Source: Bacteroidales bacterium (GTDB taxonomy: Bacteria > Bacteroidota > Bacteroidia > Bacteroidales > VadinHA17). Taken from it: DNA of 64,000 nucleotides. The position numbers and the translations under genes were made by a program. Of the stretch, positions 55,850 through 60,307 are shown one piece after another. Numbering within the stretch: position 1 is the stretch's first letter; every line of letters begins with the position of its first letter. Location of the stretch: assembly GCA_029974835.1 (NCBI GenBank), contig JARKQN010000110.1, forward strand, positions 17,187-81,186. The letters run 5' to 3'. The notes beneath the pieces were generated by a model, which was not told where the DNA came from, did not search any database, and saw only the letters and a list, made by a program, of their open reading frames with translations.

Positions 55850-55890
55850 TTTTTTATGGGTTAAGTGGTTAATAATAATTTTAAAATTAA

Positions 55891-55918
55891 AAAGGCACGC
55901 TGTGGTCTGCGTGCCTTT
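55891..55918 (-). terminator. trp attenuator terminator hairpin
   Basis: Minus strand AAAGGCACGC-AGACCACA-GCGTGCCTTT then TTAATTTT; perfect 10-bp stem. Confidence 0.85.
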
Positions 55919-55954
55919 CGGGTTTCCTATTGAGATATCATTACATGGCAGGAC

Positions 55955-56112: not shown

Positions 56113-57222
56113 TTATTTGTTGTTGTTAAGCATTTCCTTATTAATGATTCGTATCTGCCGGTTGATTGATTCCTGGTGAATTGCCTTAAACACGGCATCT
56201 ATAAGCTCGGCGCTGAGTCCCTTGTCCTTTCCTTTTACAACTGCTTTTGATATTACTTCATCCCATCTTGCGCTCTGCAGTACGGTAATGTTATTGTGTT
56301 TCTTGAATTCTCCTATCCTGTCGGCTATCTGCATTCTCTGTTCGAGCAGTTCTATCAGGTGGTCGTCGAATACATCTATCTGCTGTCGCAGTTCACCCAA
56401 GGTGTCGAGCAGTTTCGGGTCGGCCGGGTCGGGGTTTCTGAGCACCAGCCTTGCCAGCACCTCCACCAGTTCGTCGGGTGTGATCTGCTGGGCTGCATCG
56501 CTCAGGGCTTTTTCGGGGTCGTAATGCGACTCTATTATCAGTCCCTCGAAATTCAGGTCCATCGCCTTCTGCGAGAGTTCGAAGATGTATTTTCTTGCCC
56601 CGCCTATGTGACTTGGGTCACAGATGATGGGCAGGCCAGGGATTCTTCTTCTGAGCTCAATTGGTATCTGCCAGTTGGGCTGGTTGCGGTAGGCAGTCTT
56701 TTCGAATGTGGAGAAACCGCGGTGTATGGCTCCGATTCTCTTTATTCCGGCACTTGCAATTCTTTCGATGGCGCCTGTCCAGAGGTCAATGTCAGGGTTT
56801 ACGGGGTTCTTGACCAGGACGATGACATCGGTGCCGGCAAGAGCGTCTGCTATCTCCTGCACCGTGAAGGGATTGACGGATGTGCGGGCTCCTATCCATA
56901 GTATGTCGACACCGTATTTAATGGCTTCGAAGACATGCTTTTCATTTGCCACCTCGGTGGCGGTGAGAAGTCCGGTCTCTTCCTTTACTTTCCTGAGCCA
57001 TTTCAATCCTTTCGATCCCACCCCCTCAAAAGAGCCGGGGCGTGTTCTCGGTTTCCATATACCCGCCCTGAAGGCCTTTACCTCCTTTATCCCGGCGAGT
57101 GTTATCGCGGTTTTCATGACCTGTTCTTCCGATTCGGCGCTGCAGGGGCCGGAGATTATGAAAGGTCTTCCGCCTCCCTGCATCCACTGGTTAAGTGGGG
57201 TAATTTCAATCTGCAGTACCAT
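56113..57222 (-). CDS. Bifunctional 3-deoxy-7-phosphoheptulonate synthase / chorismate mutase type II
   Basis: ISGPCSAESEEQV DAHP synthase core; C-terminal chorismate mutase (LGELRQQIDVFDDHLIELLEQRMQIADRIGEFK). Confidence 0.93.
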   Translation of the reverse strand: MVLQIEITPLNQWMQGGGRPFIISGPCSAESEEQVMKTAITLAGIKEVKAFRAGIWKPRTRPGSFEGVGSKGLKWLRKVKEETGLLTATEVANEKHVFEAIKYGVDILWIGARTSVNPFTVQEIADALAGTDVIVLVKNPVNPDIDLWTGAIERIASAGIKRIGAIHRGFSTFEKTAYRNQPNWQIPIELRRRIPGLPIICDPSHIGGARKYIFELSQKAMDLNFEGLIIESHYDPEKALSDAAQQITPDELVEVLARLVLRNPDPADPKLLDTLGELRQQIDVFDDHLIELLEQRMQIADRIGEFKKHNNITVLQSARWDEVISKAVVKGKDKGLSAELIDAVFKAIHQESINRQIRIINKEMLNNNK

Positions 57223-57232
57223 AGTTATTTGT

Positions 57233-58078
57233 TTAATGTAATATTTTCTGTATCCTGTTTGCTTCTTCCATCAGCTGTTTCAGACCTTCTGCATTTCGTC
57301 CTTCAATCAGGCTGCGGAAAGAGTTCATTTTGTCGATGTAGGTGTCAATTACTTCAAGTATATGTTCGGCATTTTCGGTAAAAATAGGAGCCCATGTTTC
57401 GCTGCTGCTCTTGGCCAGCCTCACCGTACTTTCGAAACCTCCGCCGGCCAGGGCGGTGATGTTTTCTGTCTCCTTCTCCTTGTCGAGCACACACAGTGCG
57501 AGTGAAAAGGAAGTGATATGGGAGATGTGCGACACATAAGCCACATGGACATCATGGTCGACGGAGTCCATGTACAAAATGTTCATATTGAGCACGCCGA
57601 ACATGCTTTTTACCGTTTCGATGGCATCGGGATCGCTTTTTTCCCGGTCGCAGATGATGGCTCTTTTGTAGTCGAAAAGACGGCTGTGTGCGGCAAGGGG
57701 CCCGCTGTATTCCGTACCGGCCATCGGGTGGGCGGCCACAAACCTTCCTCTGGCAGGATGGCCGTCGGCAACGCGGCATATTGAACCCTTGGTCGAACCC
57801 ATGTCGGTAACAACCTTGTTCGTACCGTCGACCAAATCAAGAATGGATGGCAGCAGGGTGCAGTTGGTGTTCACCGGAGCGCTTAGGATAATCAGATCAC
57901 ACCGGTTAACGGCGTTCTCCAGAGTGTCGGTCTCATCAACAAGTCCGCACAGCTTTGCAATATTGCCGTGCTGGATGCTTGAGTCAACACCGGTTATCCT
58001 GTCTGCAAAGCCTCTCTTCCTGAGATCTATCGCCAGAGAACCTCCGATAAGTCCTATTCCCACTATTCCGATTGTCAT
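57233..58078 (-). CDS. tyrA: Prephenate dehydrogenase
   Basis: GIVGIGLIGGSLAIDLRKRG; HPMAGTEYSGP; SHISHITSFSLA. Confidence 0.9.
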   Translation of the reverse strand: MTIGIVGIGLIGGSLAIDLRKRGFADRITGVDSSIQHGNIAKLCGLVDETDTLENAVNRCDLIILSAPVNTNCTLLPSILDLVDGTNKVVTDMGSTKGSICRVADGHPARGRFVAAHPMAGTEYSGPLAAHSRLFDYKRAIICDREKSDPDAIETVKSMFGVLNMNILYMDSVDHDVHVAYVSHISHITSFSLALCVLDKEKETENITALAGGGFESTVRLAKSSSETWAPIFTENAEHILEVIDTYIDKMNSFRSLIEGRNAEGLKQLMEEANRIQKILH

Positions 58079-58088
58079 AAAAAATGAA

Positions 58089-59252
58089 TTAACTGATTAT
58101 GTTTTTTATTCTCTCTTTTGCGTTTGCCAGCAGTTCCTCGCTGGCGCAGAGGGATATTCTTATGTATCTTTTTCCGTTATTTCCGAAAATAAATCCGGGG
58201 GTTACAAATACATGTGCTTCCTCAAGGATTTTTTCGGCCAGTTCCTCTCCGCCGCCCGATGATTCAGGCACTTCACCCCAGAGGAAGAGGCCCGACTGTC
58301 GTTTGTCGAACCGGCATCCGAGGAGGCTCATGATCTCTTCGGCAATTTCCCTTCTGCGCCTGTATATGCTGTTCAACTCATCATACCATTCCCTGCCTGC
58401 CATGAGGGCTTCAGCTGCTGCAAGCTGAACGGGAAGAAACATGCCCGAATCCATATTGCTTTTTACTTTCAGGATTTCGGTGATATAGTCGCTGTGGCCG
58501 GCAACGAGGCCTATCCTCCAGCCTGCCATATTATGTGATTTGCTGAGTGAATTGAGTTCCAGCGCAACATTTTTTGCCCCGTCGGCGTATAATATACTTT
58601 TATAGTCGCGGCTTAGTATAAAGCTGTATGGGTTGTCGTTGATAACCAGTATGTTGTGTTTTGAAGCAAATTTGACCAGCCTTTCGAAAAGAATCATCGA
58701 CCCTCTCTGTCCGGTAGGCATGTTCGGGTAGTTTACCCACATCATTTTGACCATTTCAAGGTCGGTGTCTTCAAGCCTGCAGAAGTCGGGCATCCATGAG
58801 TTTTTTGCCGTAAGGTCATAGGTTCTTACGATACCTCCGGCAAGTCTGGTAACCGATGAATAGGAGGGGTATCCTGGATCAGGGACGAGCACCTCATCGC
58901 CGGGGTTAACGAAGGCCATTGTGATGTGCATGATGCCCTCCTTGCTGCCTATCAGAGGAAGGATCTCATTTTCGGGATTAAGCCCGACGCCGAAGTATTT
59001 CTGATACCATTCGGCCATGGCTTTTCTGAGGGCGGGGACACCGTTATAGCTCTGGTAGCCGTGGACGCCGGGTTTAAGGGATTCTTCCCTCAGCTTTTCA
59101 ATAGCCGAAGGCGGGGGTGGCAGGTCGGGGCTTCCTATGCCAAGGTTGATGACATCAATGCCCGACTGTCGCATCGCGGCTATCTGCCTCAGTTTTGCGG
59201 AGAAATAGTATTCCTGGACAGTTTTGGTCCTGTCGGCCGGTTTAACTTTCAT
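58089..59252 (-). CDS. PLP-dependent aminotransferase class I/II
   Basis: VINLGIGSPDLPPP; PLP lysine SLSKSHNMAGWRIG. ORF track start at 59591 reads through pheA; start MKVKPADRTK at 59252. Confidence 0.9.
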   Translation of the reverse strand: MKVKPADRTKTVQEYYFSAKLRQIAAMRQSGIDVINLGIGSPDLPPPPSAIEKLREESLKPGVHGYQSYNGVPALRKAMAEWYQKYFGVGLNPENEILPLIGSKEGIMHITMAFVNPGDEVLVPDPGYPSYSSVTRLAGGIVRTYDLTAKNSWMPDFCRLEDTDLEMVKMMWVNYPNMPTGQRGSMILFERLVKFASKHNILVINDNPYSFILSRDYKSILYADGAKNVALELNSLSKSHNMAGWRIGLVAGHSDYITEILKVKSNMDSGMFLPVQLAAAEALMAGREWYDELNSIYRRRREIAEEIMSLLGCRFDKRQSGLFLWGEVPESSGGGEELAEKILEEAHVFVTPGFIFGNNGKRYIRISLCASEELLANAKERIKNIIS

Positions 59253-60081
59253 ATATTGTTTCGTCTTTCTTGTAAATACCGAGTATTTCCAGGTCGGTTG
59301 TATCATCGCCGAGGACGCCGTGGATAAGCTCCATCGTAGCGGTTTCGGGGATCTCAAGGTCGAGGTAGAACATATATTCCCATCCGCCGTTAAGTCTGGG
59401 CACCGACTGTATTTTTGAGAGGTTGATGTTAAGTTCGGCCAGTTTAACCAGTACGTTTGCCAGGCTTCCCGGTTTATGGTTAAGTGAAAAGCAAACGGAA
59501 GCCTTGTTGCCGTTTCTGAGGCCTTTGCTCCTGCTTCCGATAATGAGGAATCTTGTATAGTTTTCCCTGTAGGTTTCAATTCCTTCGGCAATTATTTCGA
59601 GTCCGTATATCTCTGCAGCCACGGTTGAGGCGATAGCCGCCACACCCTTCAGCTTCTTCACGCTTATCTCCCTGGCGCTTCCTGCAGTATCTTCTGTTTC
59701 AATAAGGGTTATTCCGGGGTGGTTATTAAGAAATGACATGCATTGCGATAATGCGATGGGGTGTGACCTGATCTCACGTATATCGCTTATGGTCTGGCCG
59801 GTAAGGGCCATCAGGTTCTGTTTAATTCTGAGGTCATGCTCCCCGAGTATTTTCAGACCCGATTCCCTGAGAAGTGAATAATTATAAAGGATGCTTCCCG
59901 CCCTTGCATTTTCAATAGCCATCACGGCAAAATCGGCCCTGCCTGTTTTGGCCTCGGCCAGTGTCTGGTCGAAGGTTGCGCAGGGAATTATCTCAATGTT
60001 TTTACCGAAATAGTTTTTGGCTGCCACCTCGTGGAAACTTCCCGGCTCACCCTGGATAGCTATTTTTCTCACCAATTCCAT
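59242..60081 (-). CDS. pheA: Prephenate dehydratase
   Basis: IAIQGEPGSFHEVAA; NYTRFLIIG; C-terminal ACT domain HKPGSLANVLVKLAELNINLSKIQS. Confidence 0.93.
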   Translation of the reverse strand: MELVRKIAIQGEPGSFHEVAAKNYFGKNIEIIPCATFDQTLAEAKTGRADFAVMAIENARAGSILYNYSLLRESGLKILGEHDLRIKQNLMALTGQTISDIREIRSHPIALSQCMSFLNNHPGITLIETEDTAGSAREISVKKLKGVAAIASTVAAEIYGLEIIAEGIETYRENYTRFLIIGSRSKGLRNGNKASVCFSLNHKPGSLANVLVKLAELNINLSKIQSVPRLNGGWEYMFYLDLEIPETATMELIHGVLGDDTTDLEILGIYKKDETIYES

Positions 60082-60104
60082 AGATACACCTTGTTATAAA
60101 CGCT

Positions 60105-60135
60105 CAAGGGCCCCTCTTTCTCTGAGGGACCCTTG
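60105..60135 (-). terminator. phe/tyr attenuator terminator-like hairpin
   Basis: Minus strand CAAGGGTCCCTC-AGAGAAA-GAGGGGCCCTTG, 12-bp stem with one G-U; U-tract weak. Confidence 0.75.
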
Positions 60136-60177
60136 CTTATTGTCTTTATCTTAAGTCATATACAAAAATCCCTCTTT

Positions 60178-60240
60178 CTATCTCGTGAAAAAATAGAAAT
60201 AGAAGAAAGCGAAGAAATAATTTTTGTATGACTGTATCAT
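60178..60240 (-). CDS. phe/tyr leader peptide MIQSYKNYFFAFFYFYFFTR
   Basis: Minus strand ATG ATA CAG TCA TAC AAA AAT TAT TTC TTC GCT TTC TTC TAT TTC TAT TTT TTC ACG AGA TAG; 7 Phe and 4 Tyr of 20 residues, immediately upstream of pheA/tyrA operon. Confidence 0.88.
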   Translation of the reverse strand: MIQSYKNYFFAFFYFYFFTR

Positions 60241-60259
60241 TTTTCTTAAAAACAGTGTA

Positions 60260-60289
60260 CAAAAATAGTCTTTTAATCAAAAAAACAAA
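60260..60289 (-). promoter_or_regulatory. Promoter of phe/tyr operon (TTTG-N18-TATTTTTG)
   Basis: TTTG at 60286-60289 and TATTTTTG at 60260-60267 on minus strand; leader ATG 19 nt downstream. Confidence 0.65.
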
Positions 60290-60307
60290 CAAAAACGGAT
60301 AAAAATA

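Follow-up and report, generated by a model that had tools for sequence, protein, structure and literature searches.

The window, a 64,000-nucleotide stretch of a Bacteroidales genome, carries on its minus strand an operon whose gene order by Pfam is prephenate dehydratase, aminotransferase I/II, prephenate dehydrogenase and DAHP synthase/chorismate mutase. This confirms the statement of an earlier note, made from the sequence, that both pheA and tyrA are encoded here. The his operon lies directly upstream of the leader on the same strand. The features, in the order of transcription, are:

60260-60267, minus strand: leader promoter, Bacteroidota-type -7 element TATTTTTG (TAnnTTTG), from sequence and conserved spacing in relatives
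60178-60240, minus strand: leader peptide ORF MIQSYKNYFFAFFYFYFFTR, then stop; 7 codons for Phe and 4 for Tyr, the control region spanning codons 5-18, from sequence and from genus and class conservation
60220-60232, minus strand: segment 1, codons 3-7, GTCATACAAAAAT, partner of segment 2, from the minimum-free-energy (MFE) fold, genus co-variation and swap test
60155-60174, minus strand: segment 2, GAGGGATTTTTGTATATGAC, from sequence, fold, swap test and ribosome-position folding
60124-60135, minus strand: segment 3, CAAGGGTCCCTC, which can pair with segment 2 and also forms the left arm of the terminator hairpin, from sequence, fold and swap test
60105-60116, minus strand: segment 4, GAGGGGCCCTTG, which completes the terminator hairpin as its right arm (-22.3 kcal/mol), from the fold
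60095-60104, minus strand: weak U-tract AGCGTTTATA 3' of the hairpin, by base count 4 T in 10 (most relatives have 6-10 T here)
59242-60081, minus strand: pheA, the opening gene of the operon, for a prephenate dehydratase with ACT region (PF00800, E = 4e-59)
58089-59252, minus strand: class I/II aminotransferase, a candidate aromatic aminotransferase (PF00155, E = 4e-59)
57233-58078, minus strand: tyrA, prephenate dehydrogenase (PF02153/PF20463)
56113-57222, minus strand: bifunctional DAHP synthase/chorismate mutase (PF00793 and PF01817)
55890-55919, minus strand: terminator-like hairpin at the operon end, from a consensus scan only, with a regional site count equal to the shuffled expectation

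The end of the his operon and the leader ATG are separated by 67 nt (60241-60307) on the same strand, with no evident terminator between them, so that any read-through from the his genes would also meet the Phe/Tyr attenuator described below.

The promoter element TATTTTTG (60267-60260) is followed by 19 nt and then by the leader ATG at 60240 on the minus strand, and the peptide comprises 20 codons, 7 for Phe and 4 for Tyr; the promoter, spacing and composition given in the earlier note are exact to the base. Just 3' of the leader stop codon begins GAGGGATTTTTG (60174-60163, minus strand), which can pair over 12 nt, with three G-U pairs, with CAAGGGTCCCTC (60135-60124). The latter is also the left arm of a 12-bp hairpin with GAGGGGCCCTTG (60116-60105; one G-U), and the two pairings exclude each other, again as had been described. 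Segment 2 has two alternative partners: segment 1, reached via 60169-60155, and segment 3, reached via 60174-60163 (the antiterminator). A ribosome standing at the stop codon of the leader would cover its 5' part. In the MFE fold, leader codons 3-7 (60232-60220) are paired with AUUUUUGUAUAUGAC at 60169-60155, and the leader as a whole folds to -48.3 kcal/mol, compared with -32.5 ± 3.5 kcal/mol for dinucleotide shuffles (z = -4.6; 0 of 200 shuffles). Mutually exclusive 1:2, 2:3 and 3:4 pairings are therefore all present in this single leader-terminator unit. The earlier note had taken the element for an unusually compact version that dispenses with this ladder; the MFE fold and the co-variation of the 1:2 stem within the genus rule out a compact variant without that stem, and the arrangement is the classical one.

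The element is conserved in the genus of the window. Among the pheA loci of the genus, all 30 for which 5' DNA is available keep the Phe/Tyr leader, segment 2, the hairpin and the TAnnTTTG promoter. The leader is an ORF of about 20 codons that starts about 20 nt after TAnnTTTG (30/30, a conserved spacing); segment 2 is GGGATTTTTGTATAC-like and lies at or directly after the leader stop; and the hairpin is of the AAGGGTCCC/GGGCCCTT type, mostly with a T run. The order of Phe and Tyr codons is not fixed, and the two residues interchange. A covariance model built from the genus leaders matches 51 of the 62 genomes of the genus, almost always just once; in the genome of the window it finds one copy and no convincing additional ones. 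Used across the order this model is weak, and its matches include chance ones (e.g. L264, L266-L268).

To define a leader in the wider class we required an ATG ORF, 10-40 codons long, in which a stretch of ten codons includes six or more for Phe/Tyr, no more than 400 nt upstream of pheA, and applied this criterion to prephenate dehydratase loci gathered from 296 class genomes and from additional members of the order. A Phe/Tyr leader precedes pheA in 71 of 99 class loci (∼72%), while dinucleotide shuffles give a mean of 1.4 and a maximum of 5; the other 28 sampled loci have no such leader. The same criterion yields none on the antisense strand of the class pheA loci, none upstream of 30 tyrA genes and none in other classes of the phylum, for which 50 pheA loci were covered. 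TAnnTTTG accompanies 39 of the 71 class leaders, against ∼5% in shuffles. In a collection of named genomes the leader is found at about 71 of 80 pheA loci, and its carriers include Phocaeicola vulgatus ATCC 8482 (leader MKALYNTYFFFFYYFYFSNKVKREFVCVR), Bacteroides caecigallinarum, Chitinophaga, Hymenobacter, Sphingobacterium, Pedobacter and many Flavobacterium. The comparison that the earlier note had proposed, a search for the leader and co-varying stems in related pheA operons, is thus borne out at every same-genus locus examined and at ∼72% of class loci.

Two side observations concern the distribution and composition of the leaders. Families f41, f50, f90, f93 and part of f44 have no Phe/Tyr leader at pheA; in f41 a TAnnTTTG promoter stands ∼30 nt before pheA, and this proximity suggests that the leader has been lost there. 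A Trp codon is also present in 30 of 121 class leaders, about a quarter (e.g. L070, L095, L185), and may possibly allow the third aromatic amino acid to be sensed weakly.

The paired segments co-vary. When we exchanged pairing arms among 121 distinct class leaders, the predicted duplex of segment 2 with its own segment 3 had a mean of -13.8 kcal/mol, compared with -9.2 kcal/mol for foreign arms, and the corresponding means for the 1:2 stem were -17.3 and -12.9 kcal/mol. For each stem, in the genus and in the class, none of 2000 permutations reached the observed advantage of own over exchanged partners. Compared with shuffled antiterminator regions, the class leaders have mean z values of -3.65 for 2:3 and -2.24 for 1:2. 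Within the genus, 93.7% of the cells of the 1:2 stem are paired and 15 cells are changed on both sides, versus 3.2 ± 1.5 in shuffles (0/500). The equivalent genus-level count for 2:3 is uninformative, since its core pairs are nearly invariant, and the evidence for 2:3 co-variation therefore rests on the class-wide swap test.

These results bear on a rival explanation of the region: that a terminator of the his operon merely adjoins a pheA promoter, with an ORF that arose by chance in AT-rich DNA. The end of the his operon only 67 nt upstream, the ease with which Phe and Tyr codons arise in AT-rich DNA and the weak U-tract of the window all fit this explanation. However, the element is also found in genomes without upstream his genes, segments 1 and 2 co-vary, and the promoter stands before the hairpin, not after it. 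The shuffles (a mean of only 1.4 in 99 loci), the antisense strand and the regions upstream of tyrA rule out a chance ORF. We therefore give this explanation almost no credence.

We then evaluated the mechanism by folding the RNA stretch that begins at the 3' boundary of a ribosome (A-site +12) and ends with segment 3. When the ribosome occupies the first Phe/Tyr codon, the antiterminator is predicted to form, with ∼10.5 expected 2:3 pairs in the genus and 8.8 in the class; when it has moved on to the stop codon, no antiterminator is predicted, and 2.6 and 1.4 pairs, respectively, are expected. In 31 of 32 genus leaders and 115 of 121 class leaders, stalling at the first Phe codon raises the expected number of 2:3 pairs by 3 or more over the stop position, and the order is never reversed, a contrast that follows in part from the location of segment 2 in the stop footprint, itself the conserved feature. 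The folding thus agrees with the earlier proposal that a ribosome at the stop codon would mask segment 2 and that a stalled one would free it. In the window itself, with the ribosome at the stop codon, the structure competing with the terminator is predicted to reach only -3.6 kcal/mol, and 3:4 then forms. In the naked window transcript, 2:3 is predicted to prevail over 1:2 at equilibrium, which leaves the state without translation uncertain in the window species.

Termination, ribosome stalling and the response to starvation would, we infer, be connected as follows. When Phe- and Tyr-tRNA are ample, the leader ribosome would reach the stop codon and cover GAGGGA of segment 2; segment 3 would then be free to pair with segment 4, and transcription would end before pheA. 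When Phe or Tyr is short, the ribosome would halt on the Phe/Tyr codons, so that segment 1 would be covered or displaced; segment 2 could then pair with segment 3 as antiterminator, and RNA polymerase would continue. Without translation, the 1:2 stem could favor termination, a prediction that is clear in several relatives but does not hold at equilibrium in the window species. Such a sensor most likely switches the operon on only when Phe/Tyr run short.

The end of the terminator deserves separate consideration. The class hairpin has a median stability of -17.4 kcal/mol, and in 97 of 121 class leaders it is followed by 10 nt of which 6 or more are T. The earlier note had raised a weak U-tract as a caveat, and in the window this stands: the tract holds 4 T in 10, beginning 4 nt after the 12-bp stem. 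The weakness is, however, a trait of the window's subclade, shared with its nearest relatives L002 and L272, while most relatives carry a canonical tract of 6-10 T; judged from these sequences, a strong U-tract appears to have been lost in the subclade and kept by most of the genus. At 15 loci in at least eight lineages, two complete leader-antiterminator-terminator units stand in tandem before pheA: L263 (G782), L313 (G751), L167, L231, L090 and L096 (Hymenobacter and family f76), L169, L170, L173 and L174 (Chitinophaga), L091, L104, L120, L125 and L182. One could suppose instead that the leader ribosome acts on translation, altering access to the pheA start or stability, and both the weak U-tract of the subclade and the end of the hairpin, 23 nt 5' of the pheA ATG, would suit such control. 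We consider it improbable: the pheA start lies outside the hairpin, relatives have canonical U-tracts of 6-10 T, and tandem complete units with terminators fit control of transcription.

Which amino acids would be sensed? The leader is a short ORF rich in codons for the amino acids that its operon produces, a match that the earlier note had drawn from the presence of both pheA and tyrA. Both residues, Phe and Tyr, occur in 152 of the 153 distinct leaders. Nevertheless, Phe codons alone could matter, with Tyr codons carried as tolerated passengers. TTY and TAY differ by a single transversion, Phe and Tyr interchange with no conserved order, and E. coli pheL, one of the Proteobacterial pheL leaders for which attenuation is established, senses Phe. 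Against this stands, besides the near-universal presence of both residues, the one Tyr-less leader, which belongs to a monocistronic pheA. In its genome (G053; L129/L311, L261/L349) pheA and tyrA occupy separate loci: the pheA leader MTRFFTHFFFFFTQQ has 7 Phe and 0 Tyr, and a separate leader, MNNTFGYYAFYYYFFYNN, with 4 Phe and 6 Tyr, stands with a terminator before tyrA, after which comes DAHP synthase/chorismate mutase. In the other genomes of this family in which both genes were found, pheA and tyrA lie near each other on a single contig; a mixed leader precedes pheA, and tyrA has none. The leader of a second monocistronic pheA (L215) carries 4 Phe and 1 Tyr; pooled, the two monocistronic leaders have 11 Phe to 1 Tyr, versus 808 to 595 in the others (Fisher p = 0.018, a post hoc comparison). 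In two Pedobacter loci (L222, L186), pheA adjoins DAHP synthase/chorismate mutase and not tyrA, and the leaders keep both residues, as expected because that enzyme serves both products. The split in G053 strengthens the dual reading, and we regard sensing of Phe alone as unlikely.

Together, these observations lead us to conclude, with a probability of roughly 90%, that the element is a ribosome-mediated transcription attenuator that senses Phe and Tyr and controls the pheA-aminotransferase-tyrA-DAHP synthase/chorismate mutase operon. For its history we lean towards a joint pheA-tyrA attenuator ancestral to class Bacteroidia that would sense Tyr in addition to Phe, perhaps as the first leader peptide to respond to Tyr, with control codons re-tuned when the operon split and with repeated doubling into tandem units.

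By analogy, the element would work like the attenuators pheL, thrL (Thr/Ile) and ilvL (Ile/Val/Leu), the latter two being multi-amino-acid attenuators of enterobacteria. With Phe_leader (RF01859) of Gammaproteobacteria it shares a pheA operon, a Phe-rich leader, three exclusive stems and a terminator; it differs in its Tyr codons, an operon with tyrA and DAHP synthase, the TAnnTTTG promoter and its restriction to Bacteroidia. Like thrL and ilvL, it has leader codons for several amino acids matching the operon products, but the amino acids and the lineage are others. Rfam contains no family matching the window element. RF01859 scores an insignificant 21.8 bits (E = 1.2) at the window and at best 33.7 bits in 20 class loci (several at 27-34), all below its gathering score of 55, which excludes membership. 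No T-box riboswitch appears among the Rfam matches of the window up to E = 5. Bacteroid-trp RNA (RF01692) serves trp operons, a different operon from that of the pheA element. It is a predicted cis-regulatory RNA of Bacteroidetes (PMC2864571). Its covariance model matches neither the site nor the genome of the window, while the control, Bacteroides ihuae, is matched; membership is thereby rejected.

A transcriptome study of Flavobacterium psychrophilum describes a structured 5' element of pheA that Flavobacteriaceae share and that has no Rfam match, and gives clues to leader-peptide attenuation of amino-acid operons (PMC9723704). This is probably the same element, although the portions of that report we refer to mention neither a Phe/Tyr peptide nor stems, a spread across the class or dual sensing. 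In view of these hints, the window element is a well-supported addition to an already known class of attenuators. Tandem attenuators are known in Salmonella mgtCBR (PMC3641672). Some relatives resemble that case in having a single operon preceded by two consecutive leader ORFs; the signals are different, and the window has a single unit.

Bacteroidia are dominant in the human gut and in many environments, and to our knowledge little is known of how they control aromatic amino-acid synthesis. Our comparison predicts that most class members with pheA share one sensor for Phe and Tyr. The change of leader codons at an operon split constitutes a natural experiment, and tandem units together with split operons make the evolution of signal integration in attenuators directly testable.
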